Assembly (NCBI RefSeq): GCF_019649055.1
Contig: NW_026570338.1
Span: 350,483 to 414,482 of the forward strand
Direction: 5' to 3'
DNA from: Paramacrobiotus metropolitanus
Taxonomy: Eukaryota; Tardigrada; Eutardigrada; Parachela; Macrobiotidae
Length of the DNA: 64,000 nucleotides
Under the pieces are notes generated by a model that made no database searches, was not told the DNA's origin, and was given only the letters and a program-made list of their open reading frames with translations. This document shows, piece after piece, positions 21,241 to 58,410 of the stretch. Positions within the stretch are counted from its first letter, which is position 1, and every line of letters starts with the position of its first letter. The position numbers and the translations under genes are program-made.

Positions 21241-21972
21241 TCCAAGCTTATGCACGCAAGCGCCTACAAGCTCACAATTCAACGCAGCTGGTAAGATATT
21301 ATATTTATCCGTATGTTATGGTAAATTTAAATTAAACTCAATCCTGGTAATGTCTACAGAACTGCAGAAAGTGTATGGGCCATTTTCAGCATGTTCCTAA
21401 TGCACTAGAACAGTTATGAAACAAGTTTTGGCAAAAAATCTTTTCGTACTGTTTTCTGGCATGAATTAACGGGATATTCAGATTAACACCGGTTTATGAT
21501 TAAACTACGGTAAGACGTAATGCGGGAAGACATCCGAGCTTTTTCGCTAAGAGGGTTAATCTGGCAAATAACTGGTTCATTGCTCGTAAAGGTCAAACCC
21601 AGCTGTTCTCGCAGGTGTATATAAAACTGTACGCCCACCTTTGACGGCAAAGGCACAACATGCAGCTCACGCATATGCCGCAATTCGCGGACCAAGTTCC
21701 CAAATATCTTGGTTGTTTAAATTTCACTGCAATGACGCGAATACAGGTTGCTATTACCATGGCCACGAGTACAGAATTTTAGAAGCAGATGACGTTCTTG
21801 TGCTGTTCATGTGATGTAAATTATCTCCAGGTGGACTTAAAAAATATTTTCAAATTTTAGAAATTTGTTTGTTATTTATCGTATGGCATCTCCATTGGCG
21901 CAACCTACCACCTCGGTGCGGGTAACAATATTTTGAACTAGTTGAGTTATTTGTTAAAACTCGGTAACTCGG

Positions 21973-22020: not shown

Positions 22021-22591
22021 GGTTACTACCATCATCTCTCTCGCCTGATTAAAAAGAACCTAGCTTAATGTCCCCTTTGTGCACTGCCGCCAAAAATTCA
22101 CCAAAAAAGCGGTGCAGACGCTACAATGACCTCCTACAGGTGGCGGAGAGCGTAGTAGACTGGCACAGCAACGTTAACTGCAGGCCGAGCAGGGCCATCA
22201 CGCCGTGTCGCACTGCACGAGACTGCCGAGTTGAACCAACAGATTTGGAACATTTTTTATAAAAAGCAATTCAAGCAATCACCAGCAGAAGTGTTTTGTT
22301 TTTCCTTTGTTTACGTGTTTGTATTTTGTGTTTGCTCTTAAATTATAATTCTTATCTGCTGCACTGATAATTCTGCATTACCAATATAACTGTTTTTCCA
22401 TTACGAGACGAGGCAGTCTGCAACTCTGCATACTTATCGTGAATTATCATTTATCGTCCGATTCCATACTTATAATTTACTAGACATTTGAGTTCCTCGG
22501 CAAAACCCTGACGCTGCCTGATCCTCATGCTTATGAGGGCTCGATGCGCAAATGGTTTGCGAGTGTTTACCGGTGTCATGCCATCTTCTAG

Positions 22592-31500: not shown

Positions 31501-34500
31501 AGCTGAGTCAGGCCGATACCGGGATTAAACCGCTGAAACGACAGCATATGAAGAAGATCCTCTTCTCGCTGGGACGCTTTGCCCTGCGGCCGTCCAAGGT
31601 CGTCCAGACAGCGTTGATTCATTATCCCCTGGGCAGTCTGGATATTCTGGAAAAGGTACGGGTGTCACGTGACGGTGTTTGTGATGCTTTGCATAGTTTT
31701 GGGCAACGCTAAGGCTGCTTTCGGTTTTCTTAAGTCTGAAAATATGGTGTTATCGTAGTGTAATGGCCAGACGCTGGTGTTATCGTTTATTGGTTGGAGC
31801 TGAATTTAGTGATGGACACAGTTCGCTTCCACTTTGTGTGATGGCAAAAATAATTTTTCGCAAAACAAGATAGCATTAAGTAGTTAGTTAGTTAGAGGTA
31901 AATGGAAAACATCGTTGATTTTAGTTGAATAATTGCATAAGTACTTACTAACATTAAGACTGACCATGGCTGTTTCGCTGATATATGTATATTTTCAAAT
32001 TTCCAAGAAAGGCCTGCAAATTTACGTACAAAATATATGAATTGTGCGCATACGGCCAAAATTCATTTACGTATATTGTGATCCTCATTGCCACCATTTT
32101 CCTGTTTCAAGATTGCAGGAAGCAGTGTGAATAGTCAGTATTTGTATTTCAGTAATACTGTCGAAAAACTGGAGTGTACGAAACAAACTATCGTAGTGTT
32201 GTCGTAGTGTAATGGCGTTAGGCTCAGACTATAATGGCTTTCGAGTGCTTGAATTGAATAATTATTTCTACGGAACCTACAAATTCGATAGAAAAATAGT
32301 TTTTCCCACAATACTTTGGTGTTGATTTAATGTAAATAGGTAACTATCGTTAAATAAGTACCAATTAATAGTGACACACTTATTAACGGTAAGACAGACC
32401 ATGAATATCAAGTTTATGGATACTAATTTTTCAAGCCAGCCAGCAAATTTATACGGGATTGTGCGAATTCGGTCGAAACTCGTTTACGCGTACGTACGTA
32501 TATTGCTGAGATCCAAACTGGTACCTTTTTTGTTTCAAGAATGCAGACAACTATGGTAAACCGTAATACTCGTTTTTCGCCATTACGGTCACGAAACTAC
32601 GCATGATCGAAACCAATTTATAACGTATTGCCCGTAGGTGGACGGGAAGAAGCCGCCAGCCGTTGGACTTTGCTACCAGACCGATATGGGCAACCTCACC
32701 GCGCAGAACATCCTGACCTCGGCGGTATCGAGCTGCATCGCCGTGATCGCCTTCGACAGCGCGGCGAGTTCGCGGGGACGTAGATGCGGCGGACGCTGCT
32801 CAACGAGGAGGTGTGGTACGATGAGAAGCCGGCGGATAGGGGCATAGTGCCCGTACTGCCAAGGACGAACTGCAGAAGATCATCTCACTGGCTGGCAGCT
32901 TGAAGTCGTTAATATTCTCCTGCGAATCCCTGACCCGCCCCTTGCCGTGCCGGTCCGCTCCCCTGCCGCCCCGGAGGGACGCTCCGTGGTCATGGCGTCG
33001 CCGTCGCATGTCGGTCGCGATCACGACGTGGAGGCCAACCGGTACGATTAACCATAAGGACAAAATTTTAAGCCTTTCGGCGTTGAATGAGTACTACCTA
33101 TAATAATTATGTATACCGCTTCTCTAAAGACTTTATTTGTTACTTACTTTTTAGCATAGTTGGTTGTCGGCCGAATTAGCTAGATTTGTGTTCTGGTGTT
33201 GTCCTCGATTTTATGTTTGGTAATGAAAGGTTAATTTGCGCGAAGTTGTCGTAGTACACTGGCTACTAATGTTGATAATGCGGATGCTGTAGGTGTTGCA
33301 AATACTTCTGGAATCTCTAAAGAACATCGGTTAACGTAGCACATGATACTTTTTTATCTTTTAACTACAGCTTTCGATATCGATTTGGTATGACAAGTTT
33401 GTTGTTCTGCTTTAGACCGAAGATCATCACGATCCACGAGCCGCCGGAACCGACCAACCAGCAAGCCGAGTTCAGTTACCCGCGCAACCACCTGCTGGCC
33501 ATCGTTGCCCACTTTTGACCACAGCCAGCATCCGCCACCTGAGCAAATTCCTCGGCGATCTGGCCACCCGTCCGCCCGAACTCTTAGACGCCAAGAGCCA
33601 CGACTGGCGTACAATGACTAAATGGTCGGCAGCCCCATACCCAGCATTCTGTACGCAAGCGGTGCAGTGCACTTGTACGAAACGGATATTTGAACTCAGT
33701 CGCAGTGCACTGCGCTGCATTCGTACTGAATGTGGAGATGTTGGCATGCGACCATTTTGTCCTGTATGTGGCGCACACCCCCGCTGAAAGTGGCGCCGTA
33801 TGATAAGGAGGTGATGGCTTGTGAAGGTCTGAGCACTACATGCTGGACATCCTGCCCACCGTCGATTTCTCCATCGAAGCCATGATTTCGCTCTGAGGAC
33901 GTAGCGATGCCTGCAAGGGGTGTAAGGGCGGGCGCTCCGCCCTCCTGAGTAGCTATTCGCTGTTTCTGGGGATTTCCACCCGCACATTGCTGTGTTGTTT
34001 GACGGATCTGCAGCACAGTTGCACTGGCTGCAGAATCCTTCCTTGTTAGTCTGGTGTTGCTGCGCCACGGTGCGCATTAGATTCGGCAATAAAGCCTCAT
34101 CCGGGTTCACCGCTGTTCGCTGTCGAGGATACGCGTGGCGCCCATACGGCCCCGCGTTATAGCAAATTACATAAAAATTTCGTAAACTGTTAAATAAATT
34201 GTTGTTAGATTAAATGGGACTTCGCTCTCCAAGTCTTTCTAATTGTGTAACACGGATGCCGCGATCAAATGCCTAACTTTCGTAATTATTAGAGTAAATT
34301 CTCAATAAAATTCATTTAAATTCCTCTGAAATCATTTCTAATTGTGTGAACAGGAACGCGGCGGCCAAGATCATCCAGGGCCTGTCGCGCACCTTATGCA
34401 CCAACAACCTGATGGCGCTGATGCCACAGTTGCGCGCCATCACGGGCACCTGCATCCACCTGACCCTGGGAGGCCGCCTCGGGCGACACCGTCCTGGCCT

Positions 34501-35213
34501 CGCCCATCCCCGCCGGCACCATCTCCACCCTCCCGCCCCTCGTCACCGTCCCTTCCGTCTTCCGCGACGCCACCATCGACCTCACCGCCATCTACCTCCA
34601 AGCCGGCCGCGAATACTGCAACCTCGAGCAACTCTGCGCGCAGTTCAGCGACCGCTTCCTGCGCCTGGTCGTCTGCTTCCTCTTCCCCTTCGTCCTGCGC
34701 GTAGGGAGCGAGAGCACCGATCTCCCACCCATGCGCATCGAGGACCTGCGCTACATCGTCCGCACCCTCGTGTCACTACTGCACCCGCCCGTGTCCAAGC
34801 AGTTAACTTCGAAACAGCTGGCGGTCAACCAGCACATCGTCCGCACCAACAGCAACATGTCCAACCCGCCCAGCATCGTTCCTTCATCACAACAGGTGAG
34901 TCGGTTACCAGAGCGGAAGCGGAGTACTTTGACGCGGCAGAAAGCGCAGCATGGAGAACATACTGGGCCGCATCACCATCATGCGTCCATGCGGAAGGTC
35001 AACAGCTCGGAAGTCCCCGAAGCAATGGAGATGGTGCAGCTGACGCGGCCGCCGCGCGAGGATAACGTCGTTCCCAATAACGTCAACAGTAAGGTCATTA
35101 CGGTGTCGGTGGTGCACACGGCGCGTCCGCCGTCCATTAAAGCCAACGTCCCGATGCGGACGCACAGTGTGGAATCACTAAACGACGACGAAGAAATTTC
35201 CCCGCTGAAATGA
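22592..35213 (+). CDS. unc80: UNC80-like NALCN channel-complex protein, C-terminal part
   Basis: A multi-exon gene resembling the C-terminal third of UNC80, the large HEAT-repeat protein that holds the NALCN sodium leak channel with UNC79. Exons I can place: 22592-23159, 23923-24233, about 26832-27385, 27987-28190, 28769-28970, 29089-29238, about 29602-30169, 31146-31655, 32638-33041, 33416 to about 33900, 34354-35213. Telling segments are LPVLKMAAIEPVPHQ-like text, the SEDTQF block, the MHKYAWVQ end of one exon, the leucine-rich block LLIMPTVLRMYAAHQTNHLL, and FLLHRNPFLLQMFGS. Most junctions are in phase. Frame breaks occur near 24154, 29775-29808, 29908, 32785, 33513, 33830 and 34473; several are one base short in a homopolymer. 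The N-terminal two thirds are not in this window. UNC79 is the main alternative name. Confidence 0.65.
23159..23310 (+). repeat. tandem duplication of a 5' splice-site region
   Basis: The donor and first 45 bases of the intron after exon 22592-23159 (GTAAGTCCAGAAAT ... CTTGTGGGAA) recur about 107 bases downstream from 23267, giving a second intact GTAAGT. Confidence 0.75.
24420..25060 (+). repeat. dispersed repeat (related to 35.97-36.27 kb and 8.48-8.62 kb)
   Basis: The segment from CGACTGTTCAGG (about 24439) to ACATTCATCCGCTT (about 24900) matches 35975-36270 in order: GATGCRAGGTCAC, GAACRTCCCGTACGAA, GGTTTAGAAACAG, CGATAAAT, AACCGCTYAGACA. The right part (24930-25060) matches 8480-8620. 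It lies inside an intron of the UNC80-like gene. Confidence 0.6.
25690..26225 (+). repeat. minisatellite, about 11 units of roughly 50 bp
   Basis: Units share GGACAGTAGTGGTAGCTCGG, then TCACYCGCTCACCTAACGGG and CTYTGTRCACC. Spacing between AGTAGTG cores is mostly 48-57 bp, with one 63-bp unit. Because many units are near 51 bp, long frames stay open on both strands; I treat them as repeat translations. It sits in an intron of the UNC80-like gene. Confidence 0.85.
27462..27472 (+). promoter_or_regulatory. tRNA A-box-like motif
   Basis: TAGTGAAGTGG within ATCGTAGTGAAGTGG. It belongs to a set of TCGTAGTNTARTGGC words in this window; other members are at 8568, 9898, 25017, 28463, 30265, 30868 and 33252. 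Confidence 0.4.
30217..30249. repeat. hairpin: 13-bp perfect inverted repeat
   Basis: GTTAAGAAGTTGT (30217-30229) and ACAACTTCTTAAC (30237-30249) with a 7-base loop, just before the A-box-like TAGTATAGTGG at 30265. Confidence 0.75.
31751..31802 (+). repeat. tRNA-derived short element (SINE-like head)
   Basis: TATCGTAGTGTAATGGC fits the Pol III A box (TRGYNNARNNGG) at 31756-31766; GGTTGGAGCT at about 31792 is a weak B box at tRNA-like spacing. No cloverleaf could be drawn, so this is not a functional tRNA. Confidence 0.45.
32201..32250 (+). repeat. tRNA-derived short element (SINE-like head)
   Basis: GTCGTAGTGTAATGGCGTTAG holds an A-box match at 32205-32215, and TTTCGAGTGC at 32239-32248 a B-box-like match. 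Confidence 0.45.
33617..33772. repeat. imperfect hairpin insertion in or beside a UNC80-like exon
   Basis: The first about 52 bases (AATGGTCGGCAGCC ... GGTGCAGTGCAC) are an imperfect inverted copy, by eye about three quarters identical, of the last 52 (GTGCACTGCGCTGC ... GCATGCGACCATT). UNC80-like translation is readable before (DAKSHDW) and after (LKVAPYDKEVM) but not within. It is either a MITE-like insertion or a short intron made of a palindrome. Confidence 0.5.
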
Positions 35214-40800: not shown

Positions 40801-41263
40801 TTCAACCAGGAAATATGGTAACCACAGGCTCGCAGATCAGAGAGAGAGAGAAAATCCCTGATTTGTGGGCGGTTTAGTTCCGCGTTATTTGCGCTCATGA
40901 GGATGACGGACAGGAGTGGTGTAATTAAATATTGACGCACTGTAAAGCGGCAGATTCAACGCCGCTTCCGTATCTACAATTTAAGCCGTTCTTTTACAAA
41001 TCCTCGACGCACTTCCTGTGTTTCTTATCCATAATTCGCCGCCGAGTTTTTCTCCAGTTAATGTAATAAAAAATATTATCATACCGGCACCTTTGCTTGA
41101 TAACTTTCCCGGAAGCTGTGGTATTTGATTATCTCCCGAAATACAGTAATTCCATGAAGATGGCGAATTACGATTTGATTTGTATTTGCGGGTAATTTGT
41201 TTCCTAAGCTGTTGTCAACCTATCCTGAGTAATCCGCGCGCCCGGCTTTCCCCTATTCTCCAG

Positions 41264-41455
41264 CAACTGCAGACGCACACCGGCTACGCCGCCGCCCCGG
41301 CGGATGCGGGCTACAGTGACCTTTTAGTGGAGAACGACGGAGAAGTGCCCTTTCTGGCGCCACATCTGGATGCCGAACCGGCGCGTTATCTGCAGGAGAT
41401 GCAGCGGAAACGCGCCGAGGCCAGGCGGCTCGATTTCCGCACACAGGGATGGTAA
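41264..41455 (+). CDS. possible terminal exon of an unrecognised gene
   Basis: A strong acceptor (CTTTCCCCTATTCTCCAG) precedes an open frame of 63 codons ending in TGG TAA. The translation is hydrophilic, with an acidic centre and the end RLDFRTQGW, and shows codon use like the neighbouring real exons. No upstream exon could be linked, although the F-box gene lies about 1.5 kb to the left. Family unknown. Confidence 0.3.
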   Translation, partial: QLQTHTGYAAAPADAGYSDLLVENDGEVPFLAPHLDAEPARYLQEMQRKRAEARRLDFRTQGW

Positions 41456-42600
41456 TACACCGCGGACCATCTTTGTATCATCGTCCCGCTGTACAAAATA
41501 ATCATGGGATTTTTTAAAAATTTATACCGGACCAGTGCTTTTCGATAACACACTTCAATGCTCGAAAATAATCAATTTGTTTAATAATACAAAATGTGCT
41601 TATATGCACTGGGTTGGCATTATACGAGCAGCGAAGGATAGTTTACGTTTTTTTATAATTATTATCATATTACATAAAGCAAAGCGTACCTTGCGCCTCA
41701 TTGTAGCATCTCTGGATTTGACTGGCGTTTTGTGAAAGGATTTTTCAAACCGATTTGACAATCCTTTATATACGGTACATATTGGTTTTTCTGCAGAAGA
41801 TATACGAGTATATGTGACCTTTGTTATAATACCTATCCAAATACATGCCGCAATTTTGCCGTCTCTTCTGATCAAATAAACGATGTTATACTAGATTGAT
41901 TAAAGTGATGTTATTCATGTGTTTTATGGCGACGCAATATCGATGGTCGCTCTTGTTAATTTCTTTTTTAATGTGTCTTCGCGCGGTAGCGTGCTTGCTT
42001 TTTGGCATCGTTGCTAGCTTTTTCGATGGGATAAAGTTTGTATTAAAAATTCTCCCTCGATTAAACGGCGTCTGTTTTAGAGTACACCAAACTGCCAAAT
42101 GGACGGGCAAAATAACTGAACGATTTCGATACGATATATCTGTACATACAGAAATACATCGCGTTGCATGTATAATTATATACGCACAATCAGCTTACGT
42201 AAACTGTCAATAGACACCAGATTAATGAGAATCCGAATGATTCTACAAAATGCAACTAGATAACGTCTAGAGCAGCTTATATGTTGAGTTATTAAGAATC
42301 ATTTGCATTGTAAATCACAAAAGTATCGCACGTTATAATATTGTAAATATCCGGTTATAATACACAAATGATTATGTATGGAGCAAAACAGGTCCGCGTT
42401 GAATATGTTTATGGAAATGTGCTCTAGTTTCACTACCGTGTTTATTACGAGAGAAGAACAATTACATAGAACCAGGTGACTAAAGGGTACGTGTTCCGTG
42501 AAACTGCAGTGTTTCTCCTCGGCGCAGCATGCATTCCAAATGCCTGGGCGAACATTGCACAGCGCCAACTAGAAACCGGCTCGGAAAGGTCCCACTGCGA
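41456..42600. other. AT-rich intergenic stretch
   Basis: No convincing gene. One 105-codon plus-strand frame (41896-42213) has a hydrophobic start but no family resemblance or splice support. Confidence 0.4.
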
Positions 42601-42618
42601 ATGGCGGGATTACAAAAG

Positions 42619-42626
42619 TATAAAAG
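42619..42626 (+). promoter_or_regulatory. TATA box of secreted poly-Thr protein gene 1
   Basis: TATAAAAG lies 130 bases before the ATG. Similar boxes precede both paralogues. Confidence 0.65.
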
Positions 42627-42755
42627 CGGGCATGGAGCGTGATCACGGCACACGTTGCTGACGGCTGCTCTCCTTGGTGTCTTGTTGCTACAGTATTAAC
42701 TGTATAATCAGTTTATTGTTGTTGTAATTATTAGTAAATCTATAATAAAGTTACC

Positions 42756-43512
42756 ATGAAACTGTATCTTGTCCTGCTAGCGTTGGCCATGGTTTTATTG
42801 CGCGGTATGTACGAGTACTTATCACCCTATTTGCAATGCCCTGAATAAGTTTACATTAACTCTATTAGTAATTTATTTTAATTCTAATTTTGATTGGATG
42901 ACAAATTAGTAATTACTCTAAATTGCAGTTATAATTATTCAAGAATTTATGCACCATTGCTTGATCAATATTACATAACTCCATTGTATTATACTGTTGA
43001 TTGCTATATAGTCATCATGTAACGTTTCACAAATTCAGTTTGTTTCAGCACCACAATGTATACAATATACACGTATGTTTTCAATAAACTGTAATTCCGA
43101 TTAAATTAATGTCATTATAGAGACACCACGATGCTCGGCAGCCGTTGCCGCATCCGGTAAAGCGGCCACATCATCCAGCGATGAGGAAGTGGAGGACGAC
43201 GACACCGAACAGTCAGCAGCGCCGGCGCCCGCCCCAGCCCCGGCCCCCTCCGCCGGCAAGAAGCCCAGCGCGGACGGCGGCGACGACGATGACAGCGGCG
43301 GCTATGGACCGGTAAAGAAGACCCCGGCGCCCACCACGACCACCACTACAACGACAACCACCACGACGACGACCACCACCAAGAAGCCCTCCACGCCCAA
43401 GAAGCAGCGCCCGCCCGGCTACGATCTCATCAACACCGAGGTCACCGAAAGCACCTTTAAGCTGACGCGGCCGCCGGCTAAACGCGGCCGGACCGTCTTT
43501 GACAGGAGATAA
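42756..43512 (+). CDS. small secreted acidic poly-threonine protein, paralogue 1
   Basis: Two exons (42756-42804 and 43121-43512) joined by a phase-1 GTATGT/TATAG intron; 146 residues. Exon 1 is almost exactly a signal peptide (MKLYLVLLALAMVLLR). The mature part is low-complexity and should be disordered: an acidic/Ser block (SSSDEEVEDDD), an Ala-Pro run, a second acidic block ending DDDSGGYG, 16 threonines in a row, a basic Lys/Pro stretch, then the conserved tail PPGYDLINTEVTE ... GRTVFDRR. The Thr run is a likely O-glycosylation site. No known family comes to mind. First of three head-to-tail copies; AATAAA at 43630. An extracellular matrix, mucus or cuticle role is inference. Confidence 0.8.
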
Positions 43513-43629
43513 AGGCCACACTGGTGCATTAGTATTACTGTATCGTACCGTGCTATCATTTGCCGTTAGACAGTTTTACATGGCATAAGAACTTTGACCG
43601 TCGTAAAGAATTGAATTCGCCTTCAGTGT

Positions 43630-43635
43630 AATAAA
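43630..43635 (+). terminator. polyadenylation signal AATAAA
   Basis: 118 bases after the stop of paralogue 1. Confidence 0.6.
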
Positions 43636-43639
43636 GAAC

Positions 43640-44660
43640 CGGAAGGAAAGGAAAAATGAATTGAATAACTTAAAAAACTTGAGATTCGTCGTTTTATTTA
43701 ATCCACATTTCTAATCACTTTCGTAAAACTCACGGTGTTCGTTATTTACCCATACTTTTTGCACATTTAGTGCTTCTGGATATTTTCGTAAAATTGTAAG
43801 TGTCCATTTCACTGGCTTAGTGTTAGTCGAATTATACAAAAAGAAATAAAACTATTTTTTGCCGCATTAAACTAATTCAGTTGATGCTCTGGTGTGAAAC
43901 CGGTGATAGTATCCCTCGTACAGTACATTACTAAATTATACAGAATAATGCGGATGTCGTATTATTTGCATGCTTAATTGGTAAATTTGTCAATAATAAA
44001 ATTCGCTATGAATTTACTATGAAATGGCAGTCTTGATCTTATATAATCACCACCGTCTGCTTGATCGTTCTACGTATAAGTGGCATGAAGGGCCTTCCGG
44101 CGCTCAGACATTACTCGTTAAATTAACACGTCTGAATGGCACTGCATTAATGTTTAAGAGAAAATAATTATCTGAACCGCAGCCAGAAAAAAAGCGCTCT
44201 ATATTCATACAGCGGTTGATTCATATTTTGACACGGCCGTTCAACGCCAGCCAACCGGCATTCGTTCGACCTGGATACACGTAACATTTCCAGGTCAAGT
44301 TCCCGCTTTGATGCAGCGTATACTGTGCAGTTTTATACACGGTTATTTAACGCTTTATACAGCGTACATATATATTAGTACGCATACAGTAATTGCGGCA
44401 ATTATCATCACAATACGGAAACTGCTCAGACTAGAAGCCGCACTACTGTCTACCGTAGTACATACAACACTGCACTTCCGCAGTCTATTGTACAATTATT
44501 CACAAAAACACAAATCAGGAAATAGAATTTAGAAAACGGGGAAACGGAGAAATTTGCGGGAAAGGCAGACAAGCAAACAATTCATGTAAGAAGTTGGCCA
44601 ACGGAGAATCCAAACGGCCAACCCGGCAAATGCCGGCAGACAAAAATCAGTGAAACCTGT
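43640..44660. other. intergenic stretch between paralogues 1 and 2
   Basis: No gene seen. It probably carries the control DNA of paralogue 2. Confidence 0.4.
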
Positions 44661-44666
44661 CATGGG

Positions 44667-44674
44667 TATATAAA
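44667..44674 (+). promoter_or_regulatory. TATA box of secreted poly-Thr protein gene 2
   Basis: TATATAAA about 100 bases before the ATG at 44771. Confidence 0.65.
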
Positions 44675-44770
44675 AAATGGTTACTGAAAATCCGCAGAAA
44701 TCGACAAATTATTTCCCTTTCATTCTATTTGCTTTCTCCATTCTCCGTAGTCCGATACCAAAGCACAACC

Positions 44771-45635
44771 ATGAAGATCTATTTGGCACTTTTTGCTCTG
44801 TTCCTCTTCTTTTTATACGGTAAGCAGCGAGAATAAATTTGGCCAGTGCTTCGAACAGAAGGTACAGACGCATAAGTAAAGTGTAATTAAAACATTTTAA
44901 GCAAGTGCTAATTTTATAACAATTATTAAACGAAAAATTAAATAAGGTAATTAAATTGCTACTATTTATACCAACTTTTTGCAAGAGCAGTCCTGAGTAC
45001 TATGTAATTTAACAATTTTCCGAGTCTTAGCAAAATGCAACGGTTATTTTTCCAACCATAATCTTAGCACACGCTGTTTCCTATACGACGAGCATGGATG
45101 ATATATATAATTGTTACAGTTTTGCAAAAAGGTGGATTCTATTAATTTCGTATGGAAATGTGTAATTGATCTCAAGAACAAGAACGGTTGTTTAGTAAAG
45201 AACAATATTTATGTGTTATTTGCAGAAGTTCCTAGTGCCTCCTCGGCCAAATTAAACCCCCGCACCGCCAACCGTCACCCGCACCCAGCTCGCCCGGTCC
45301 GTCAAGCCAAGCCTGCCGCGGCGGACGATGAGGACGCCGGTGATGATGAGGAGGAAGCGGACCAGCCGGCCGCTAAACCGGTGTCGTCCAAGTCATCGGC
45401 CAAGGCCTCCGGAGCCTCGGTGAAAGTCAGTGGCAAGGCCAGCGCGTCGTCCAGCAGCAGCGATGACGACGGTGCGTCCGGTTACGCAAAACCCACGAAA
45501 CCAACTACCACCACGACCACCACCACCACGACGAAGAAACGACGCCCGGGCTACGAACTGGAGAACACCGGGGTCACCGAGGCTATCTTCCGGCCTAAGG
45601 TGCCCAAGGGACGTACCGCCTTCGACCGGAAGTAA
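44771..45635 (+). CDS. small secreted acidic poly-threonine protein, paralogue 2
   Basis: Exons 44771-44819 and 45226-45635 with the same phase-1 split after the signal peptide (MKIYLALFALFLFFLY); 152 residues. The order of blocks is as in paralogue 1: VRQAKPAAADDEDAGDDEEE acidic stretch, a Ser/Ala/Lys stretch, SSSDDDGASGY, ten threonines, then a basic RRPGYELENTGVTEAIFRPK tail ending GRTAFDRK. The tail is by far the best conserved part across the three copies, so it is the likely functional or binding element. No transmembrane segment follows the signal peptide. Confidence 0.82.
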
Positions 45636-46202
45636 AGAATGAATGAAATATTGTGTTATAACGTTCCTAAATAACCGAACGGAAAATTGTTGATGAATGT
45701 GTGTTAAATTGTTAACGTTCCTATACGACAGTTGTTACGTTGATCTTGTTAACGGCCACTTGTCCGTTCAGCAGAAAAAGCGCTATGTACCGATCGTTAA
45801 GTGTTTAACGAAGAGAAGCAAAAGAATTTTATGCACATGTACTGGATACGTTAATATTCATGCACGCTTACACAATTCTTTGCCGGTAATCACGCATTAC
45901 ACAATCTCTTGTGTATACACTGCATTAACCGTAGTTGTCGTTGTACGCATAGCAAGGAAGTAAGGGCTGTCGTTACACGGTGCTTATGCTCTTTTGAAAG
46001 CGTTTTACACGCTGGACACCCACACTTCCGCGGACCTCTCACAGTGCGCATGCATACAGAGAAAAAGAAGGAAATATAATTATAATAACTGTGCACTTAA
46101 CTAAGCTTTATTAAAATAAGCGGTAATAACGATTTGGCCAGTGGTTTATCCAGAAACTATATTACTTTTTGCCAGCATATAATGAGGTGCGAGAATCTAA
46201 GG

Positions 46203-46212
46203 TATATATAAG
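46203..46212 (+). promoter_or_regulatory. TATA box of secreted poly-Thr protein gene 3
   Basis: TATATATAAG about 100 bases before the ATG at 46306. Confidence 0.65.
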
Positions 46213-46305
46213 GTTAAGCCGCGACGTTTAGATATCAGATTAAGCATTTCTGCTCTCTTGTGATTTCTTCTAAAGTTCCTTCCGCTCAACCCTCAACCGC
46301 CAACC

Positions 46306-47204
46306 ATGAAGGTGTACCTGGCTCTCTTGGCTCTTGCCCTTTGCGTTTTATACGGTAGGTTCTACATAATAACCGAGCGAAGCAATCTCCTGCCATATAC
46401 CGGCATAGAAAAATTCACAACACATTTGTGTAATTTTATCGACACATTTTTATTATTTTTTCTAATATTTTTATAGATGTGACTGACTTTTATTTACAGC
46501 AGCCTACCGAGTAAATTGATTTTCTATTCTCACCTGGTATTTTTTGTTAATATGATTATTATTACTATCTGTTAATATTTCATGGAAGTTTTATTACTGT
46601 TATCGTATTTTATTGGGTGGCACAAATGAACATTGGTTAAACGCTAAATCAAGCAGTCCCAGTGCATTATTTCAACACATAATATACTTCATCCAGCCTC
46701 CTCCCGATGCAGAAGGTTTCCTGAACGCATGCAGCATTACTGTCATTATTCATTCTTATATTTTATTGTAACTATTTGTAATCTGTTGCTTGTTTTACAG
46801 ATGCCCGATTACATCCGCTGCTAAACTGAGCTGCGCGCTACGCTCGTCAAGCCAAACCCGCCGACGACGAGGACGCCGGTGAGGACGAGCCGGACGACGC
46901 GGCCGCCTCCAAGCCGGCCTCCGCCAAGGGCTCCGCGTCCGCCTCGGGATCGGCCTCCTCTTCCGGGTCATCCAGCAGTTCTTCGTCGTCGTCCTCCGGT
47001 GGCGATGATGACAGCGCCTCCGGCTACGGACCCAAACCCACCAAACCGACCACCACAACAACGACCACAACGACGACCACCACCACGACGCAGAAGCCGT
47101 CCACGAAACGACCCCGCCCCGGCTACGAGCTGATCAACACCGGTGTCACGGAGGCCATCTTCCGGCCCAAGCCGCGCGGCCGCACCGCCTTCGACCGGAA
47201 GTGA
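46306..47204 (+). CDS. small secreted acidic poly-threonine protein, paralogue 3
   Basis: Exon 1 is 46306-46354 (MKVYLALLALALCVLY plus one base). The acceptor that best fits by sequence, TTGTTTTACAG at 46800, leads into an in-frame TGA at 46827-46829. An AG exactly 30 bases further on (46829-46830) keeps the same frame and skips the stop, giving exon 46831-47204 and a 140-residue protein that aligns well: YARQAKPADDEDAGEDE, a long Ser run, DDDSASGYG, 14 threonines, then RPGYELINTGVTEAIFRPK and GRTAFDRK. Either the downstream acceptor is used, or this copy is newly broken. It shares everything else with paralogues 1 and 2. Confidence 0.75.
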
Positions 47205-48147
47205 ACGTAGTCGCGATCCATCGTTGTTGGCGTTTGTTAAAGATGTGCTTATTTCTTTATGGGATATAGAAAATTGGTTGGATTATGTAACAAATGGTAT
47301 TATCAATCGCTGCGCTCAAATTAATTAAAACGGAATTAAATTCTCCGATGTGCCGAAACGGGCAGCGTAATTTATTTGAAACGTAATCGATGCCAAAATA
47401 TCTTATTAGTACTATTAGTATTTATTTTGGGATTGCTAGAAAATAATCTAAATTTTTGATACGAGATGTGTAATTACAAAATGTAATATTTCGCCTAATC
47501 ATTCTGTATATGTTAATCAGTTAATTTTATTTCTCAATATGTACAAACCGAGCTTAATTCGCTCAACAATAATAATCAAATGAAGAATTTGTCCCAGTTT
47601 ACATGAGAAGGGACTGTGCCCAATACATCCATAGCATTACCGCGCATAATCTCCAAACTTAAACGTTGAAACAAAAAACAAGTCGAGCGACTCTCGCCCG
47701 TTTTCAAAAACAGTTTCTTACCAATCTCCTTTAATGTATGTCAATTATGTGTACAAGTATAGCGGTTTATTCACTTGCTACGGCACTGCTTAAGCCACTG
47801 TTCTACCAAATGTGTGCGTTTTCTAATCGGCGTTGCATCGTTTCTTGCTCGAATTTTCCGTTAAATACGTGTAATTATAATCATTTTGCTTTAATTATAC
47901 TTTGTTTATCGGACGGAACGTTTCCCTGGTTAAGAAAATGCATAGATACACCGAAGGTAAATTTACTTTACATCATTTTCATTACAATAAATTACCAATA
48001 ATTTGCTGATAATTGTATTAAATACAGCAGCACAATAAGGAATATTTCAAATATCACCAAATGCGCATTGAGTGGCAAAAATCGACCAGTACAAAAAAAA
48101 AGACATCCGGCTGCACTTTTCCCATGCATCCTGCCAGTGATTGATTT
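47205..48147. other. intergenic stretch between convergent genes
   Basis: AT-rich; separates the last secreted-protein gene (plus) from the 3' end of the receptor cyclase (minus). Nothing else recognised. Confidence 0.5.
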
Positions 48148-51100
48148 TCAGTGGAGTTTCCCCACTAACCAGTGCGTAAAAAGCACACCTTTCCCCTGCA
48201 AGAAAACCACAGGCGATTACATAACGCTGCGCAAAACATCCAGCTGTGCGTATAATAAACATCACACAGAACTTCGATTAGCAATAAAATATTCGTATAA
48301 AAAAGGATTTTCGATACTGCGTCAAAACAACGTTCCAAATCGTCGTTTACCTTGATGGGAATCTCGCCGCGCTCTGTACAGGTGAAGCCGCCGATCAGGT
48401 CGAGAAGGCGTCGCGTCTCCGGACCGATTTGTATCCGCATCGCTGCCAATTTAACGATTAATCAGATTTTTATTTTTTTTTCTTGTGTAATACGTATCGA
48501 AATTCAATTGTGCCGGCTTACGCTCGCTACTGGATTCCATACGCGATGCGGTGTTGACCGTATCCCCAAATCTATACGTTGAGTAATAATCTTTTTTATT
48601 ATAAGGTCATAATATTTCATTATCGGACATCCGTCTCGCTTACAGGCAATAACGCGGCATCTTTTTCCCGACAATACCGGCAACGCAGGGACCTAGTTAA
48701 CATTCGACACATTTTCGAAAAGCTGCATTTATACTTGTTAATATTGCTGTTATTGAAAAGCAGGTTAATTAAATTACAAATATCTTGGCAATTTAAAAAA
48801 TTAAATAAGTCGCTAACCCGAATTGATGCCCACGCGAATCTGTACATTCTCCGACGGCAAGTGCGGCACCACAAACTTGGCAATACCGGCCACCACCTCC
48901 AACGCCATCCCGCAGATCTGGCTGACGTGCTTGTTACCGTTACGAATTGGCAAGCCTGATGCCACCTAGGTATGAGGGAATAAAAAGAGTTGGCGGGTTA
49001 CGAAGAAGATAAATTGTGATAATAAGATGCTAGTGTTAATAGGAAGTTTGCTGCTGATAACACAGGGTTGACAATTATTAACCGGAAGGGCAAGAACAGA
49101 AACACGTATTTTTTACAACAGTTATTTTTGGTACAATAAGGTAAACGTACCATGTAGGCATCGCCGATAGTCTCCACCTTGTAGACATCGTGCCGCATCA
49201 GCACCTCATCGAAGAAGGTGTAGAGTTTATTGAGCAGTTCGATGACGTCGAGCGGGGTGCCCTTGGAGGAGATGGTGGTGAAGCCGACAATGTCGCTGAA
49301 GAACACCGTCACGCTGTCGAAGGCTTCCGGCTCCACGGTCAGGCCCTTCGTCAGAGCCGCCGCTACCGGTCTACAAAGTACAATATTTAATACACTGCGC
49401 AAGTCATCGTTCTTAGTAGGAAGAATATTTTTGTTTCGATTGTTAACTGAACCAGGATAATATTTCTAAAGGTACATACGTCACATTACTACAAAATACA
49501 GATGTATATTCTTCTGTCACGGAAACACCACTAGATATTGGCTATATATACTGCTTTACGCATAACGTAAGTATCCAGAATATGAGATTATAAAGGCAGC
49601 ATATTATTGTGCCGTATTTATGGAAAGTCTGACTACCGGTGATAATTCTGCGAGTCAAATGCTGATTACTTACATATTTGAAAAATAATACTATTAATTA
49701 TTCTGAAGTGGCGAAAAAAACATACTTTGGAAGCAGTTCGCCCAGCAGCTGCTCGGACCGCATCTTCTCATCCATAAACTGCTGCGTCTGCTCGGCCACC
49801 TTCTGCTCCAAATCACTGGCGTACTGCTCCATCCGCTTAAACAGCGAATCAATGACGTTATCCCCGATGTTGCCCATGATCTTCAGCAGACGCTCTTTGA
49901 CTTTTTGGAAGGTCGGCCGCTCTAACGGCACCTCCTCCCAACAGCGCTCCATCAGGTCGTACAACTCGTTGGAGCAGGACGACCGGGGAACGCGCGGACG
50001 GACCGGGGGAATATTAGCGGCGATGACCTTTTTAGTTAAAAATCACCTAATAAACATTCAGTTCTTAAATGTTCAAATAAAAAGCGAATCTACTTCTAAG
50101 ACGATTTCCCGAGGGGAAAGGTCCAGTGGGTCATCGGGAAGCTCAAAGGGGGCGCTGCGGAGGATGATCTGCTGGAGGATGATGGCAAAACTGTATACGT
50201 CGCCTTTCTATAAAGGTTGGATAGTGTAATTTCGAATGATCACATTGTGGCGTGATTTTCGCTGCTCACTTGTGTGCCTTTGACCGGCATCACTTGGCGC
50301 AGTAATTCGGGGCGCGCCACATCAGCGCCTCCCAGTCCCGCTCGTAATCGTTGGCTTTGGGCGGGATGAGATCCTCCTTCTTGCGGAAGAACGCCAGACC
50401 GTAATCGGCGATTTTCAGCGTGAAACGATTATCCAGCTGGCACGTATTGGAGCTGAGATTGCCGTGTGAGGCGATGGGTGGAGTGCAGGTAGGTCATTCC
50501 CTAGAGAGATGGGTGAGGGTATTTATGAAGTTTTGACTTCATAACCGATTCATCAATAATCAATAAAATATTAGTACCGAAGCGGGTAGTGATCATCGTT
50601 TTACAGCTTGAAGCTAGAATTATTTATGCGCGGTAACGTCTGCCTCCACATTATGCTTATACACTCCCAATGAGAATGGAATAAATTATTATACATTATG
50701 GAAATTTTATTTCATGCGTTTTATATTTTAACTTAATAATTTACTGTGATAAATGATGCTGCGCCTTACCGACACTAAATCCCGGATAATGAGATTTTAA
50801 AGAACCAGTCCAGTTTAATTACGGGACTTTCCAGGACATTCGTCAACGTCCCTTTGAGCAAATTTCCCCGACGACGTACTGGCACACATTATCGGGGCTG
50901 AGCGCCACGCCGATAAAGTGCTGAAGATTGGCGTTGTCCGTCTTTTGATCTGTAGATCTTCCAGTTATTAACCCCGTTCAAAAGTAACGCGCCATACAGG
51001 TTTACCAGTTTCAACTCGTCGGTCAACTCGCGGTTGGGCGTCAACTTGCGATCCGTTACGTCGATCAGTCCGACCATGGTGCCGTTGTACAGGGCGAAAA

Positions 51101-54100
51101 GGTCGCACATGTAGGCTGAATAGTGAGTTGACTGTTTGCTGGCGCCGGTGTTCTGGCTTCTCTACAACCGTACAAAAAACGGTCGACTACAAAAAGCGCT
51201 ATGTATGTGCAACTAACTAAAAAATCTTTCCTAAAATTATTTTATTTTTTACAAAATTTGAAAATTGATGCTACGGTGATTGATTTACCAGGGTTTTCTT
51301 GGAGCTACTGGCCGCTCGCGGACTCTTAATATCCAGCTCCTCCACCATGATCTTCCACCAGTTGGGATTAAAATCCAACCGTGATTGCCTGTATATAATC
51401 ATTCCATATAGAATAATAAACGTTCAGCTTTGATGCCGATAATATTACTGTGTAGTATTTTGTATACCAGAACTGGAGAAAGACGTAGGCGCCCACGGAT
51501 ACCAGAACGGCAAGGAAGATGAGCGGCAATCCGACCACCAGGCCGATGGTCGTTGGGGATAGTCCCGTCTGCAGGCACTTGTCGTTGCGGAAGCCACACA
51601 CCGGCTCATCCGGTGGCAGTTCATCGCGGTTGGCGCGATTGGGCCAGGAGTAGTTGTACAGGCGCCGGTATGTCACGTTGCTGTGCGGTCGAAATTGCAG
51701 GACCACCTGCAACATTCAAACGTTGGCTATAGGATACCGCGCTCGCTATACGAGAGCGCCAATCACTACAACTTTTCTTTCTTCAGTATTTTCCGTGCAC
51801 ATTTGTACTGCATATCCTACTGATATCAAAATCCCAACATGACAGGACAATAATTAATTGTCACCGTGTTATCTTCTTTTCCTACTTCATACTTCAAAGT
51901 TTGAATTTAACAGGTTTAGTTACCGCCATCTACATATAAACAGTATTTAAGAGTATTTAAACAAATATACGTAGTACTCTTCCAGAGGTATTTTCAGGTA
52001 TTTTGTATTACTTTATTTGAGGTATTTTGTAAGACAGACTACTGCCGAAAATTTCACGGTGCATTTGTGCTTGACCTGTTTTTATGAACTCGTTTAAGCA
52101 ATGTAGTTATTTAACGTATTTTGACAGGCACAGGTGAGCGCCTGTAACAGTAAAAAAAACAACAGAAAATTGCATACTCGCTCTCATTTCTTAGTAATAA
52201 TTTTAAATACGGAAAAAGAATATAAAGCACCCTCAATTTATGCTATGGCAGAGCATCTTCCACGTTGGTTTCTTACTTCAACTTTCTTTGCTTTGCGGCC
52301 ATTGTACTACCAAATCATATGCCATATCATTCTGACAAATACGGCAGATACACGGTCTTATCAAAATATGCGTCGTTCTTTCTGATTTCAAATATTTCAG
52401 TGCTGTTTTAATATATTTTGGATTTCGTATCAAATTTTTGTAATTTATATAACTACATAACTGATAATATGTGCCTTCATAATATTCCGCTGACAAATAA
52501 GTACCTTATACGTACTCTTCTTGCCCGGTTTTTATTAAATCCATGCAGCATTACTGTTTTGTAGATCAAGTTGCTGAAAAACTTTTGAAGCGGGTATGAT
52601 ATCCGTAAACGATTCGCAATAAATTAACTTGTTCTGATGGTGGCATAATATGAGATCGTATATGAACGATCACATTTAGCACTCGTACTAAAAAGAAATT
52701 CAATAGTACAAGAGAAATGCAGCGCCGGTAAAGTACTGGCGCATATGCATATGCGGTAGACATTTGGTAGAACAGTGGTTTGCGCTGGCGCATACGCAGT
52801 GTCTCAAACCGCTTTGCCCCAACACTACGAGTAGTACTCAAAATATGATAATACCATTTATGGAAACATTCACAAACACCAATTTTTTATTTTGATCGTG
52901 GAGAATGAGTAGCGCCTGCTCTCGTTGATACTGTAATTATCCGGCTACAAAAAAGCTCAAATCCCAGCGGCATATGTTTGATGGATTTTTTTCAACGCCG
53001 TATTAAATGCATGCAGAACATTCGCGATACTGCAGTACTGACACTGATGAATCAGCATAAACTCATCTGCTTGCCTGGTATTTATCGCTTTCCACGTTAT
53101 AATGCTTGAGCACATAGCCCTTCTCGCGCTGGCGATTGGCCCCAAAGTACATCTTCCCGCCGAGCGGATTGTTGAAGGACGTGTTGGACATGCGCGCCAC
53201 GATGATGTCGCCGTCGGTGTAGTTGAGCTCCTCGTCCAGCAGATCCTTCAGCACATATGCATACACCATGATGGACTCGTAGTGGTTGCGCAGCACCACG
53301 TCGATGGTGTCCAGCGGGCCGAAGGTGTAATTGTAATGTTCACGCGCCACCCGCGTGGCGGCCAATTGGAAGGTCTCGTCCTCCGTGCCGCGCGTGCTAT
53401 CATCCAGCAGCTGCGCCACCAGCAGGCTCTCGTAGGCGGCCGCGGCACTCTGCAGGCAGAGACAATAAAATGTCACACGCGGGATTACGCAATACATGTG
53501 AAAGCGCGGTTCTTCAACACTCCTTGCCCTCATTTGGTTTAGTGCGAAAATATTCTTAAATGGCTTTGTTAGCACCAGCTGATCGCAATAAGTACTTGGG
53601 CATGCGCAAGTGCCCCTCAACGCTTCTAACCACGTTGCGAAAAGTTATATAATATTTAAGTGTGTACACTCGTATAGTCTATATAACATGTATTTTACAA
53701 TAGTGCAGCAATACATAGAGACATCCAAATATTAGGATTTTATGCGAAAGCACTTTCGAGTTTAGATAAATCATTGCTCAGTTAAGGAAAGGTTAAGGAA
53801 AGTTCCCGATTTCGGATCTCTATCGAAATTAAGACAAAATTATTTTCACATATTTATATAAGTGCATATATCTGCAATATTACGGCTACTGCAACGTTTA
53901 ATGGTAGTCATACACGAAGTAGTACATATCTACTGGTACTAGTAATTTACAAAACGCAATAACTCATATACCACCATATTTCCTATATATACTGCTCTAA
54001 CCCTAACGGGAAATGAGTTCCAAATAACTGAATTATAAAGTATATACGCAGCACAATGTGGCTCTGGTATTTCTTTGTTCTCTGTAGTTATCTGCAAAGT

Positions 54101-56539
54101 GTAGACCTATTTACCGCATCGTTATTATCGCCGATCGTGGGATCCACTCGACCCCAGTACTCCGGCAGATCGAACAGTTCCGCTGCTATAAACACCTGCC
54201 GACAAAAGCACTTCTTCAAGGAACGTTTGATCGATGTTCTGCCGTATATTTTTCCCGCATATAATCGAAGTAATCGTTACGTTACGGAAACCAAGGAAAT
54301 CTTACATGTTCGCCTTTCGTGTATCCCAGACTATGAGCAACCAACTGAAAATATCAACACAGCTGTATCAAATGTAAAAATACTTTTCTGTAGTAAAGCA
54401 TCGTACCATTACGTTCCGGACGCAATCCGCATGTCCCAGGATCAGAATCACTGTAAACAGTCGCACTCATTATACCGAAAGGTCAAGGTAAACTTAACCT
54501 TCATAACATAATCTTATTGATCTATGCGTTCAGAGATTGTCACTGCGCCCGGAAATTCCCCTATCGATCATACTTCGAGATCGTTCATTGGCGCTCTCAG
54601 AATCTGTTTGTACGTGTCGCGCGTGGCCCGCTGACTGCGCACGGACACGATATTCGTGTTACGGAACATGATGAAATTGGCGTCGCGCATCGTACGCGAA
54701 AAACTGTCCACCAGGTTGGCGAAGAAAGTGAAGGATTCATCGCGAATTATAGTAAGATGGGAGAACTTGCGGAAGACCAGCAGATCAATGAGGAAGCGTG
54801 AGAAATCCGTGAAGCTGAAGGTGGGCTGAATGAGCAGCGGGAAGGTGGAGGGGTTGCTCTCCGCTTGCAGGTAGGTCACGCCGGCACCCGGGATGCACAT
54901 CATGGCGATGTCCAGGGCTTCGGCGAAGCCACAGCGCCACGGTGGTGTACGGACAACCTGTACAAACGTACATGCCGAATTTAGAATAATCGTTTGCCCC
55001 GCGATAGAATACTATGATTTCCTATGATTTACACCTTAATTTCCTGCTAATAAATAATTGGACAGTTCAATCAAAACTACTGTAATACATTATACAAACA
55101 ACTGCAATGTACAATTACACTGTACAATTACATTGTACGTTGCACGTCTGCATAATGTACAAGAATAGCGCACTATCCTATATGTAAATAATAACTGTGG
55201 ACGTTTTGGAAGATGAGCATCCTTAATTCATACAAATGATTAAATACAGGTATTGTACAAAATTAATTGTATTTTAATTTCACACATGAAATTATTCTAT
55301 TTGACGAAATTATGATATGAAATTCGCAGCTCTGCAGCTGTCGCTTAAATTTGCACTGTTGCAACAATTTTAACCGATTTCTTGAAGATCAGTTTTCGTG
55401 CTTATGGCTGACATAGCGCAATCTTTCGAATAGCTGTGATACACTAATAACTGCGATCTTTCGAATAGCTGTGATACATTATTATATTATTCAATATTAT
55501 TACAATAATTTTGAGCACCAACGTGAGGGAACAAAACCAGTTTTAGATTTTACTCCACACTACATCTTTCAAAACAAAAATTATGATTGAAAGGTTTCAC
55601 TGCTGAATGCTGACGACGCCGTCGCATCAGTGTGTTTGTCTAACTTTTATCCTGCCACTCCTAGTTTCCGCAATTTTTCTTGCAACAAAAAGGCCTATCG
55701 TATACCGGTAATAAATTATTAAAAACTTCCTTTCGAGCATTATTAAGATGAGTATACTGTATATCCGGAAAACGTCCGGAAATGTATGAGGTGCATCCTA
55801 ATGGATATACCACACCTACTTTTGTTGTACATATCTGTACATGGAAGATTATAAATTTATAACACACCATGCAAACTCAGAATGTGCGGATAAAAAAAGC
55901 TTAAAAGGCGGCGACATGTGCGTGGTGTTAAAAACCTTTAGCTTACGTCACCCGCTCCCCCTTGCGCATTCGTTTTAAATAACTCAACTGCTTCGTTGCG
56001 AAAACAGTATTACAGTTTTTTTCTGTTCAAATATTTATTTTCCACAAATATGTGTAGTTTGAAAATCCTCTACTGCAGATAATTCCGTTTCCGAACCGGA
56101 AACATGTGCCAAGTTAATAATAGATCAATAATAATTATTGGTTCTGTTTCCGCAAACGCACGCACAATAACGCAGCATAAGCAATTAATTATCCATTCCA
56201 AAGTCAAATAATATCGACACTTACTGGCGCCGATAATGAGGTGGCACGTTTCCCCGGCCTGCAGCAGTCCGTACATGGCCGTCACGGCGGCGCTCTGGCT
56301 CTTAATACAGGCCGGTCCCGCATTCCGGTACACTTTCTGCAGCGTAATCTGATCATTGAGGACGTAGTTGTTGGCGTGATAGATCCCAAATCCACAAAGG
56401 CCGCCACCCGTTCATATTTCGAATAGTACGAATCACTTTCCCATAAATAACACACCGTGAGATTCCGCGGTAATCCCGGTAGCATGCCCTCCACAATGAC
56501 CATCACCTGCACCACCACCAGAAAAAGAACCGCGCGCAT
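48148..56539 (-). CDS. receptor-type guanylate cyclase (copy D), 19 exons
   Basis: Exons, 5' to 3': 56539-56225, 54957-54574, 54450-54407, 54344-54306, 54195-54115, 53449-53075, 51706-51468, 51388-51289, 51161-51006, 50949-50770, 50500-50270, 50207-50094, 50027-49726, 49370-49151, 48965-48818, 48692-48644, 48571-48522, 48442-48351, 48195-48148. The protein is about 1,058 residues once the indels are allowed for, normal for the family: signal peptide ([18 protein letters not shown]), ANF-receptor-type ligand domain (exons 1-7), one membrane helix (exon 7), kinase-homology domain lacking HRD/DFG residues (8-13), coiled-coil linker, cyclase domain (14-19). The cyclase keeps FSDIVGFT and GDAYMV metal sites, the guanine-selecting Glu (VETIGDAY) and Cys (MPRYC), and NTASRM, so it should make cGMP. 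About seven small deletions break exons 1, 2, 10 and 11. Start alternative: ATG at 56584. Confidence 0.88.
55417..55486 (+). repeat. short tandem duplication in intron 1 of copy D
   Basis: ATCTTTCGAATAGCTGTGAT occurs twice, 36 bases apart. Confidence 0.7.
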
Positions 56540-56599
56540 CTTGCCGTACACATCGCCCAGCGATTGTCGGTCATTTCTGGGCATGGATGGCTGGCAAAA

Positions 56600-57171
56600 A
56601 CGAGCGCGGAAATTTTACGGAAAACGCGCTGCACAGCACACCGCTTCGTGACGGCAACAAAAGAGCAGCATCTCGTTAACACACGGGATAAGTGGCAAGA
56701 ATAAAGAGTGGCAGCGTATTAACCCGATGCGAAAATATCCCGGTATTGTCTTTCCCGGGCGAGTCAAGACGCCGCTGTAACCTTTTGAGCGACTCCACAC
56801 CTGCGATCCATACACGGCGTATTTCTCCCGCAGACCGTTGTAAAAGAATCGATAGCTGTTCGATCGATCGAGAGAAGCCGGTTGTTTAAACAGGTGCACC
56901 AACCGGGGCTCTCAATTACCACATGCACCGTGGGCTTGTTGATTAAAAGTTTGGTACAAGTGTCGGTTTGGCGCTTTGTGCTTGTGTAATAGAGTGCAAT
57001 AAACGCCATTTATACGCGTATTCTCTGTATAATATTCCCATACTGCAATTATTGATCGAACTAGCTTATGTTGCGTTATACGTACAGTGCATTGATTGTA
57101 AATATAATGTGACCTTTTCCCGCCAACACAATATGTCCTACACGTGACGCTGCGATATACAAAACACCCAC
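56600..57171. other. gap between the two minus-strand cyclase copies
   Basis: Searched for further exons of copy C (the VILILGH-type exon 3 and later) and found none. It probably holds the promoter of copy D. Confidence 0.45.
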
Positions 57172-58410
57172 CGCGTGATTGCTCGTTGGCGGCTTGCAGC
57201 ACCATCCGGTAGATGTCCATTGTGCTCAGCCGGCTGCGCACCGACTGCACCTCCGTCTTCATGAAAATACTGTAGTTGATGTCGCGCAGCGCCTTGATAA
57301 AGCTCAGGGAGAAATCCATGAAGAAGCTGTAGGAGTCGTCGCGGATGACGGTGAGGTGCTGGAAGCCGTTCTGCACGAGGAATTCCACAATGAATTCGGT
57401 GAGGTCGGAGAGACTAAAGGCCGGTTGCACCAGGAGCGGGAAATCGTGGGCGGAGGTGTTGGATTGGACGGCGGTGACGCCGGCGCCCGGGATGGCCATC
57501 AGCGGCGCGTTGATGTAGCGCGCAAAACCGTATAAAACACTGACGGTTCGCGCGCACCCTGTTATGGAAAAAAAGCCGGTTTTCTTTAATTTCTTACGAA
57601 TCCTGACGAGAGAAAAAGTTAGTTTGTTATCTTAGGTATTTAATGTCGGTTTGCTTAAATTATGGGCTTACGTTTCCTAATTGGATACGAAGCTAGTTGG
57701 TTTATTTATCTTGGGTATTTGAAGTCAAATAATACCGGTTCTGATCAGGTTGTTAAAATTTTTTTCGAATCAAAAGCACAATTTTCGCAAACTTCTTCAG
57801 TTTTTTTTAATTTGAAAAAGACGGTTTTATTTTATTCTTTTGAAAAAAAGACAGGTTTTCTGATTGGAAAAAATCGGTTATCGTTGGAACGTTGCGTTTT
57901 TATGGGAAAGCCGATCTTCTTAGGTTTTAAAATAAAACAGTCGGTTTTCTTAGGCTATGCAATTCCTTACTTCCTCGACAATGTTGACGCGAACTGAGCA
58001 AAGTTCTAACTGAACCGGCTAATTTTAGCAAGAAGAACACACAACACCCAGCAAAGACATTATTCCACCGGAAATTAGATGATAGAATCCGACACCGTGC
58101 CTACGCAAACAGTCTTCTACCCGTTCCGATAATTAGATTGCAAGATTCCCCATTCCAGCAGATCGTACACTCGATGCACGGCGGTACTCTGGCCCCGCAC
58201 GATGGTCCGAGGATGCGCCACACTCTCCGCAAATTAACATTATACCTCGCAAGCGATTATTGGCATGCTGGATACCCAAGTCAGAAACGGCGCCGTGCGA
58301 TTAAACGGCGCATAATACGAATCGGATTCCCACAAGTAACACACGGATAATGTTACGCCGTGGATCGGCCGCGGAATAAGCAGGATGGTACCGAGCAGCA
58401 ATCGCAGCAT
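57172..58410 (-). pseudogene. truncated receptor guanylate cyclase (copy C), first two exons
   Basis: Exon 1 (58410-58121) gives a signal peptide (MLRLLLGTILLIPRPIHG) and the [17 protein letters not shown] start of the ligand domain, then needs frame changes near 58295, 58235 and 58200. Exon 2 (57558-57172, 387 bases) is intact and equals the length of the matching exon in copy E; it carries LYGFARYINAPLMAIPGAG. The joining phase and the G|GTGGGT donor match the paralogues. Nothing downstream continues it before copy D begins at 56539, so it lacks the rest of the receptor, the membrane helix, kinase-like and cyclase domains. It could only make a secreted fragment. Most likely a partial tandem duplicate. 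Confidence 0.72.
57559..58120 (+). repeat. degenerate CGGTTTTCTTAGG words inside intron 1 of copy C
   Basis: Several scattered copies of CGGTTTTCTT/GGTTTTCTGATT words, resembling the 12.7-kb minisatellite. They keep a 111-codon plus-strand frame open that I do not believe is a gene. Confidence 0.35.

Follow-up and report, generated by a model that had tools for sequence, protein, structure and literature searches.

The salivary glue (Sgs) genes of Drosophila have a phase-1 intron in the signal peptide, a Thr-rich middle of low complexity and a conserved C-terminus, and their clusters gain and lose copies (PMC6352337). In the pharyngeal cuticle of C. elegans, the IDPA, IDPB, IDPC and APPG families are small sets of secreted, low-complexity disordered proteins (PMC9629831), and in insects the three-finger protein Retroactive is required for cuticle integrity (PMC3561106). 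Here we describe three tandem genes, A, B and C, of what is most probably the tardigrade Paramacrobiotus metropolitanus or a near relative, and three paralogs, D, E and F, whose products have the same C-terminal tail. A preliminary description of genes A to C had stated that no family with this layout was known, but the Drosophila glue genes are organized alike: as in Sgs1/3/7/8 and Eig71Ee, the phase-1 intron of A to E interrupts the coding region of the predicted signal peptide, the middle of the protein is Thr-rich, of low complexity and probably prone to O-glycosylation, the C-terminus is conserved, and A to C are clustered. Unlike in the salivary glue, the tail of A to F does not contain cysteines, the Thr runs are short and not long tandem repeats, and some members carry a Ly6 domain. 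No Pfam model links the C-termini of the two groups, a comparison made with Pfam only, and the glue genes are an analogy, not shown relatives. Like the C. elegans proteins, A to F would form a small ecdysozoan family of secreted disordered proteins, again by analogy, with no sequence relation known. The Ly6 domain of E and F is of the three-finger class to which Retroactive belongs, but Retroactive differs from E and F in its C-terminal hydrophobic region. To our knowledge, Retroactive has neither a poly-Thr run nor such a tail. Literature on tardigrade mucins, tardigrade Ly6 proteins and stylet mineral contained nothing usable for this family.

Structure and assembly of the gene array

The window, i.e., the whole stretch of DNA analysed, is the final 64 kb of contig C118. 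As had been described, genes A, B and C are arranged head to tail on its + strand, with ATGs at positions 42756, 44771 and 46306, and each contains one phase-1 intron with GT-AG borders (Table 1). In all of A to E, this intron follows 46 to 49 coding nucleotides. The hydrophobic N-terminus encoded by the 49-nt first exon of A, B and C has a peak Kyte-Doolittle value of 2.9 to 3.0 and is a predicted signal peptide; signal peptides were judged from hydropathy alone, the N-termini being strongly hydrophobic with a basic residue. TATA-box promoters were also confirmed, with octamers at -137 (A), -104 (B) and -103 (C) from the ATG. The chance of finding such octamers in 3 of 3 genes is about 1e-5, given the octamer density of the window and a 50-nt zone that was picked post hoc. 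Paralog D has a TATA octamer 117 nt 5' of its ATG, so TATA promoters are present in A to D. Apart from the TATA box, no shared upstream elements above chance expectation were found. The run of 10 to 16 threonines was found in all three window proteins (16 in A, 10 in B and 14 in C). It is encoded by mixed ACC, ACG, ACA and ACT codons, which speaks against recent slippage of a codon and for selection acting on the peptide. The reading frames are open, spliceable and under selection, and the genes share their structure.

Table 1. Positions of the tail-bearing genes and their elements (window coordinates for A to C; contig for D to F)
Feature	Location	Strand	Description
Gene A	42756-43512	+	Exon 1, 42756-42804; intron, 42805-43120; exon 2, 43121-43512
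TATA box of gene A	42619..42626	+	TATAAAAG; 137 nt 5' of ATG
Gene A exon 1	42756..42804	+	49-nt exon for predicted signal peptide MKLYLVLLALAMVLLR; phase-1 intron starts with GTATGT at 42805
Gene A exon 2	43121..43512	+	Acidic and Ala/Pro blocks, DDDDSGGYGP, T16, tail PPGYDLINTEVTESTFKLTRPPAKRGRTVFDRR, stop
Gene B	44771-45635	+	Exon 1, 44771-44819; intron, 44820-45225; exon 2, 45226-45635
TATA box of gene B	44667..44676	+	TATATAAAAA; 104 nt 5' of ATG
Gene B exon 1	44771..44819	+	49-nt exon for predicted signal peptide MKIYLALFALFLFFLY; phase-1 intron starts with GTAAGC at 44820
Gene B exon 2	45226..45635	+	RPVRQAKPAAADDEDAG, Ser/Ala block, DDDGASGYAK, T10, tail RPGYELENTGVTEAIFRPKVPKGRTAFDRK, stop
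Gene C	46306-47204	+	Exon 1, 46306-46354; intron, 46355-46800; exon 2, 46801-47204
TATA box of gene C	46203..46212	+	TATATATAAG; ~103 nt 5' of ATG
Gene C exon 1	46306..46354	+	49-nt exon for predicted signal peptide MKVYLALLALALCVLY; phase-1 intron starts with GTAGGT at 46355
Gene C exon 2	46801..47204	+	ARYARQAKPADDEDAG, Ser-rich block, DDDSASGYGP, T14, tail RPGYELINTGVTEAIFRPKPRGRTAFDRK, stop
Gene D	Contig C119		Found by tail search
Gene E	Contig C119		Found by tail search
Gene F	Contig C4		Reached through Ly6 domain of E; more divergent

The same array is repeated on contig C163, with 99.0% identity to C118 across 7.9 kb (window 40900-48800). At 41.9 to 48.5 kb the differences are nearly all indels of one or two bases, and the single-nucleotide differences at 40.9 to 41.6 kb are probably allelic. 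In light of this identity and the almost exclusively small indels, we rejected the C163 copies as extra genes. Compared to C163, the window lacks 1 nt at 46803 and 2 nt at 46832 in exon 2 of gene C, and these deletions lead to an in-frame stop; the frame near the exon 2 start is thus broken in C118 but open in C163. The reverse is true of exon 1 of gene B, whose frame is open in C118 but has lost one T in C163. Because C118 breaks gene C while C163 breaks gene B, these indels are probably independent consensus errors of long-read data in two contigs that were not merged. For the published genome of Paramacrobiotus sp. TYO, Nanopore reads were assembled under settings that retain heterozygous variants (PMC8277472). 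An annotation from C118 or C163 alone will be wrong for gene C or gene B, respectively.

The rest of the window contains several other open frames. A Gag-like frame with CCHC zinc knuckles at 16984-17796 is probably a retroelement remnant, and the frame at 19364-19789 matches Pfam Glyco_hydro_19 (class I chitinase) at the cut-off, with 25.5 bits; GH19 enzymes are uncommon in animals. On the - strand, 20275-21315 is a single-exon frame for a rhodopsin-family G protein-coupled receptor (7tm_1, E = 6.5e-11), and on the + strand, a large multi-exon gene at 22500-35200 encodes UNC80, a subunit of the NALCN channel complex. A guanylate cyclase catalytic exon and several ANF receptor-like ligand-binding exons at 48998-61300, on both strands, suggest a tandem group of receptor guanylyl cyclases. 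Genes for trehalose-phosphate synthase, also reported for Paramacrobiotus sp. TYO, are present in the same genome.

The C-terminal tail and its occurrence in a wider family

The tail is 30 to 38 residues long, basic and ends with F-D-R-[RK]. In the preliminary description it was quoted as RPGYELINTGVTEAIFRPK followed by GRTAFDRK. The first part is exact in C, but B has ELEN and A has PPGYDLINTEVTESTFKLTRPP; the ending is correct for B and C, but A has GRTVFDRR. The similarity is far above chance, since a six-frame genome search with the C tail as the query found B with an E value of 6e-12 and A with 1.3e-9. An alignment of A to E has 12 invariant positions (P, Y, L, T, V-T-E, R-P and F-D-R). 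The dN/dS ratios of the tail were 0.32 (A-B), 0.37 (A-C) and 0.17 (B-C), and about 0.11 to 0.40 for all ten pairs of A to E, values that are rough with ~25 synonymous sites per pair. Ratios in this range indicate that the tail is under purifying selection and is thus a selected protein feature, as judged from paralogs inside one genome.

Searches of Pfam, NCBIfam and the PDB with the tail or with the whole proteins A to C gave nothing above the cut-off, and no known named family was matched in these databases. By undescribed we mean absent from Pfam, the PDB and open-access text; a name in transcriptome annotations is possible. A scan of 84,980 prokaryote genomes with a tail profile found no relative and thus gave no hint of a bacterial origin by transfer. 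Further tail-search matches on contigs C9 and C151 (E = 0.42 and 0.63) and on C23 (E = 3.6) were rejected as weak poly-Thr or low-complexity matches.

Only three genes had been counted in the preliminary description, which proved too few: at least six, A to F, have the tail, and this number is a lower bound, as the search of the genome (169.8 Mb in 533 contigs) scores the best candidates only. Genome searches with the tail found it only in A to C (and their overlapping copies on C163), D and E. Gene D has a predicted signal-peptide exon and a phase-1 intron and encodes a 507-residue protein in which many Ala/Lys/Glu repeats, DDEGAGEDE, AYGP and T15 precede the tail. Gene E has a predicted signal-peptide exon, two Ly6 exons, a Thr/Pro/Glu-rich linker, T11 and the tail. 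Gene F ends with ...DDETYGDNP...TTTTTTTTT...PIITRPRRRNFTIFDRK, and its tail is closest to that of D (PI--ITRPxRRxxTxFDR). The joint alignment score of the F tail was reached in 0 of 3000 shuffles against A to E and in 0 of 5000 shuffles against D.

In E and F, a quiver-type Ly6 (three-finger) domain is placed before the same linker and tail. Gene E is over the Pfam cut-off for QVR (PF17064; 29.3 versus 27.3 bits), and F matches QVR with an E value of 6.3e-5, under the cut-off. Unlike QVR proteins, A to D are without Ly6, no match to QVR being found in the window genes A to C, and E and F end with F-D-R-[RK] and not with a hydrophobic GPI-type signal. Another gene, G, which lies between D and E on the opposite strand, is over the QVR cut-off but encodes only Ly6 and ends without the tail. 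When 26 other QVR-like matches were scanned together with flanks of ~1.5 kb, neither a tail nor poly-Thr was found. Ly6 is present in E as well as in F, which diverges most from the other members. The ancestor therefore probably had Ly6, and A to D would have retained only linker and tail; alternatively, Ly6 may have been gained in E and F by exchange. A partial copy of the Ly6 exons of E, in pieces that are 64 to 90% identical, was found on contig C104 at ~117467-117713 (locus L032, 115500-120500); it has a stop, is without linker and tail and is likely a pseudogene fragment.

Linker composition, charge and predicted disorder

From residue 19 to the Thr run, the linker has 69, 91, 82, 436 and 248 residues in A, B, C, D and E, respectively. 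It is of low complexity, and its length and composition vary freely among the members. The window proteins had been called acidic. This holds for local stretches, which reach -8 to -9 per 15 residues, but not for the whole proteins, with net charges of +2 (A), +6 (B) and +3 (C); D and E have net charges of -10 and -2. Likewise, the proposed D-D-D-S-x-x-G-Y box fits C in its literal form but neither A nor B, and what is shared is an acidic cluster separated from a Tyr by a few residues, most of them small. The composition is rich in Thr and Ser, with T10 to T16 and Ser blocks in A to C.

An AlphaFold2 model of B with the other members contained no helix of 4 and no strand of 3 residues; the pTM was 0.14, the mean pLDDT was 55.8 and the tail was unstructured. 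The input consisted of five sequences only, and a fold that forms upon binding is possible. A mineral-associated role, which had been suggested, found no specific support: the proteins are almost neutral overall, and S-x-E, which occurs once in A but in neither B nor C, is not a conserved site. Thus, the strong net acidity and conserved S-x-E sites of acidic phosphorylated biomineralisation proteins were not found in A to C.

Possible functions of the tail-bearing proteins

Tail selection, the lack of a predicted fold and the lack of a family match agree with the earlier proposal of a secreted, disordered, mucin-like protein set whose fixed tail probably binds something. With moderate confidence, we regard A to C as secreted, probably O-glycosylated disordered proteins whose tail would serve as a linear motif for docking within a secretion or an extracellular matrix. 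The products of A to F are probably secreted. The poly-Thr stretch would then be a stiff spacer with mucin-type O-glycosylation, and the linker, in which acidic and basic blocks alternate, would be a hydrated filler. The basic tail would act as a short linear motif through which the protein docks to a partner in the matrix, which may be cuticle, pharyngeal lining or a glandular secretion. Overall, this would be a mucin-like matrix protein set tethered by its tail. A role in the cuticle is possible by analogy and is made plausible by Retroactive, a three-finger protein that serves cuticle formation (PMC3561106).

If the proteins were instead an adhesive or lubricant secreted by a gland like the Drosophila glue, they would be stored in concentrated form, with O-glycosylated threonines and a C-terminus for assembly. 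The gene layout shared with Sgs1/3/7/8 (PMC6352337) is consistent with this, and A has a weak match to Pfam New_glue, below the cut-off, on its Thr run (residues 88 to 111). However, cysteines probably mediate the assembly of Sgs proteins (PMC6352337), and the tail does not have any. Moreover, the Thr runs are short stretches that do not form tandem repeats, and apart from poly-Thr no sequence homology is seen with Pfam. A phase-1 intron close to the signal peptide is, in addition, a common feature of secreted proteins. We therefore consider a glue doubtful.

The preliminary description had also offered the tail as a processing site, and one could imagine a peptide-hormone-like precursor that is cleaved at basic clusters flanking the tail, with the tail peptide as the active product. 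Basic clusters do precede the tail (KKRR, KRPR, KKQR and KRRR), basic residues are found before TAFDRR, and B and C share an RxxR-QAKPA sequence near the N-terminus, absent from A and D, that might be a propeptide cut site. But Pro comes after every one of the basic clusters ahead of the tail; this disfavours convertase cleavage and weakens the tail as a processing site. Moreover, there is no conserved amidation site (E has RRR, the others G-R or G-K), each protein has a single copy of the tail, the linkers are long and some members contain a Ly6 domain. Such a precursor is thus quite unlikely.

The fusion of Ly6 to the tail in E and F, and the neighbourhood of D and E with the Ly6-only gene G between them on the opposite strand, would fit modulators of a Ly6 pathway, in which the partner of the tail also binds E and F and the Ly6-less A to D compete or scaffold. 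Yet the tail is missing from the 26 other QVR-like matches, and we regard this as improbable to a similar degree. Equally slim is the chance of extracellular, hydrophilic desiccation protectants: predicted secretion, disorder and a host that is probably an anhydrobiotic tardigrade agree with it, but there is no similarity to a described protectant family in Pfam or the PDB, and a bulk protectant would not be expected to have Ly6 fusions or a conserved tail for docking.

A matrix component, at about an even chance, is therefore favoured over a gland adhesive or lubricant, which is clearly less probable, and over the precursor, the modulator of a Ly6 pathway and the desiccation protectant, which rank lower still. 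A to F seem to be mucin-like extracellular proteins of a family that is undescribed but ordinary in its mechanism; the family is probably new, although its kind is known. More speculatively, the tail could be a transferable C-terminal address or assembly tag of a metazoan extracellular matrix that delivers unlike proteins to one structure; the front ends joined to it would, on this rather doubtful reading, be the Ly6 domain, the long Ala/Lys/Glu repeats and the short Ser blocks. Such a tag, if the tail is one, would account for the presence of unrelated sequences together in a single extracellular structure. Secreted disordered proteins of cuticles and secretions evolve fast, and their relatives are hence hard to recognise. 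With a short tail that stays fixed amid changing sequence, such proteins can be sought in other tardigrades, and the tail is also a defined peptide for a search for the partner.
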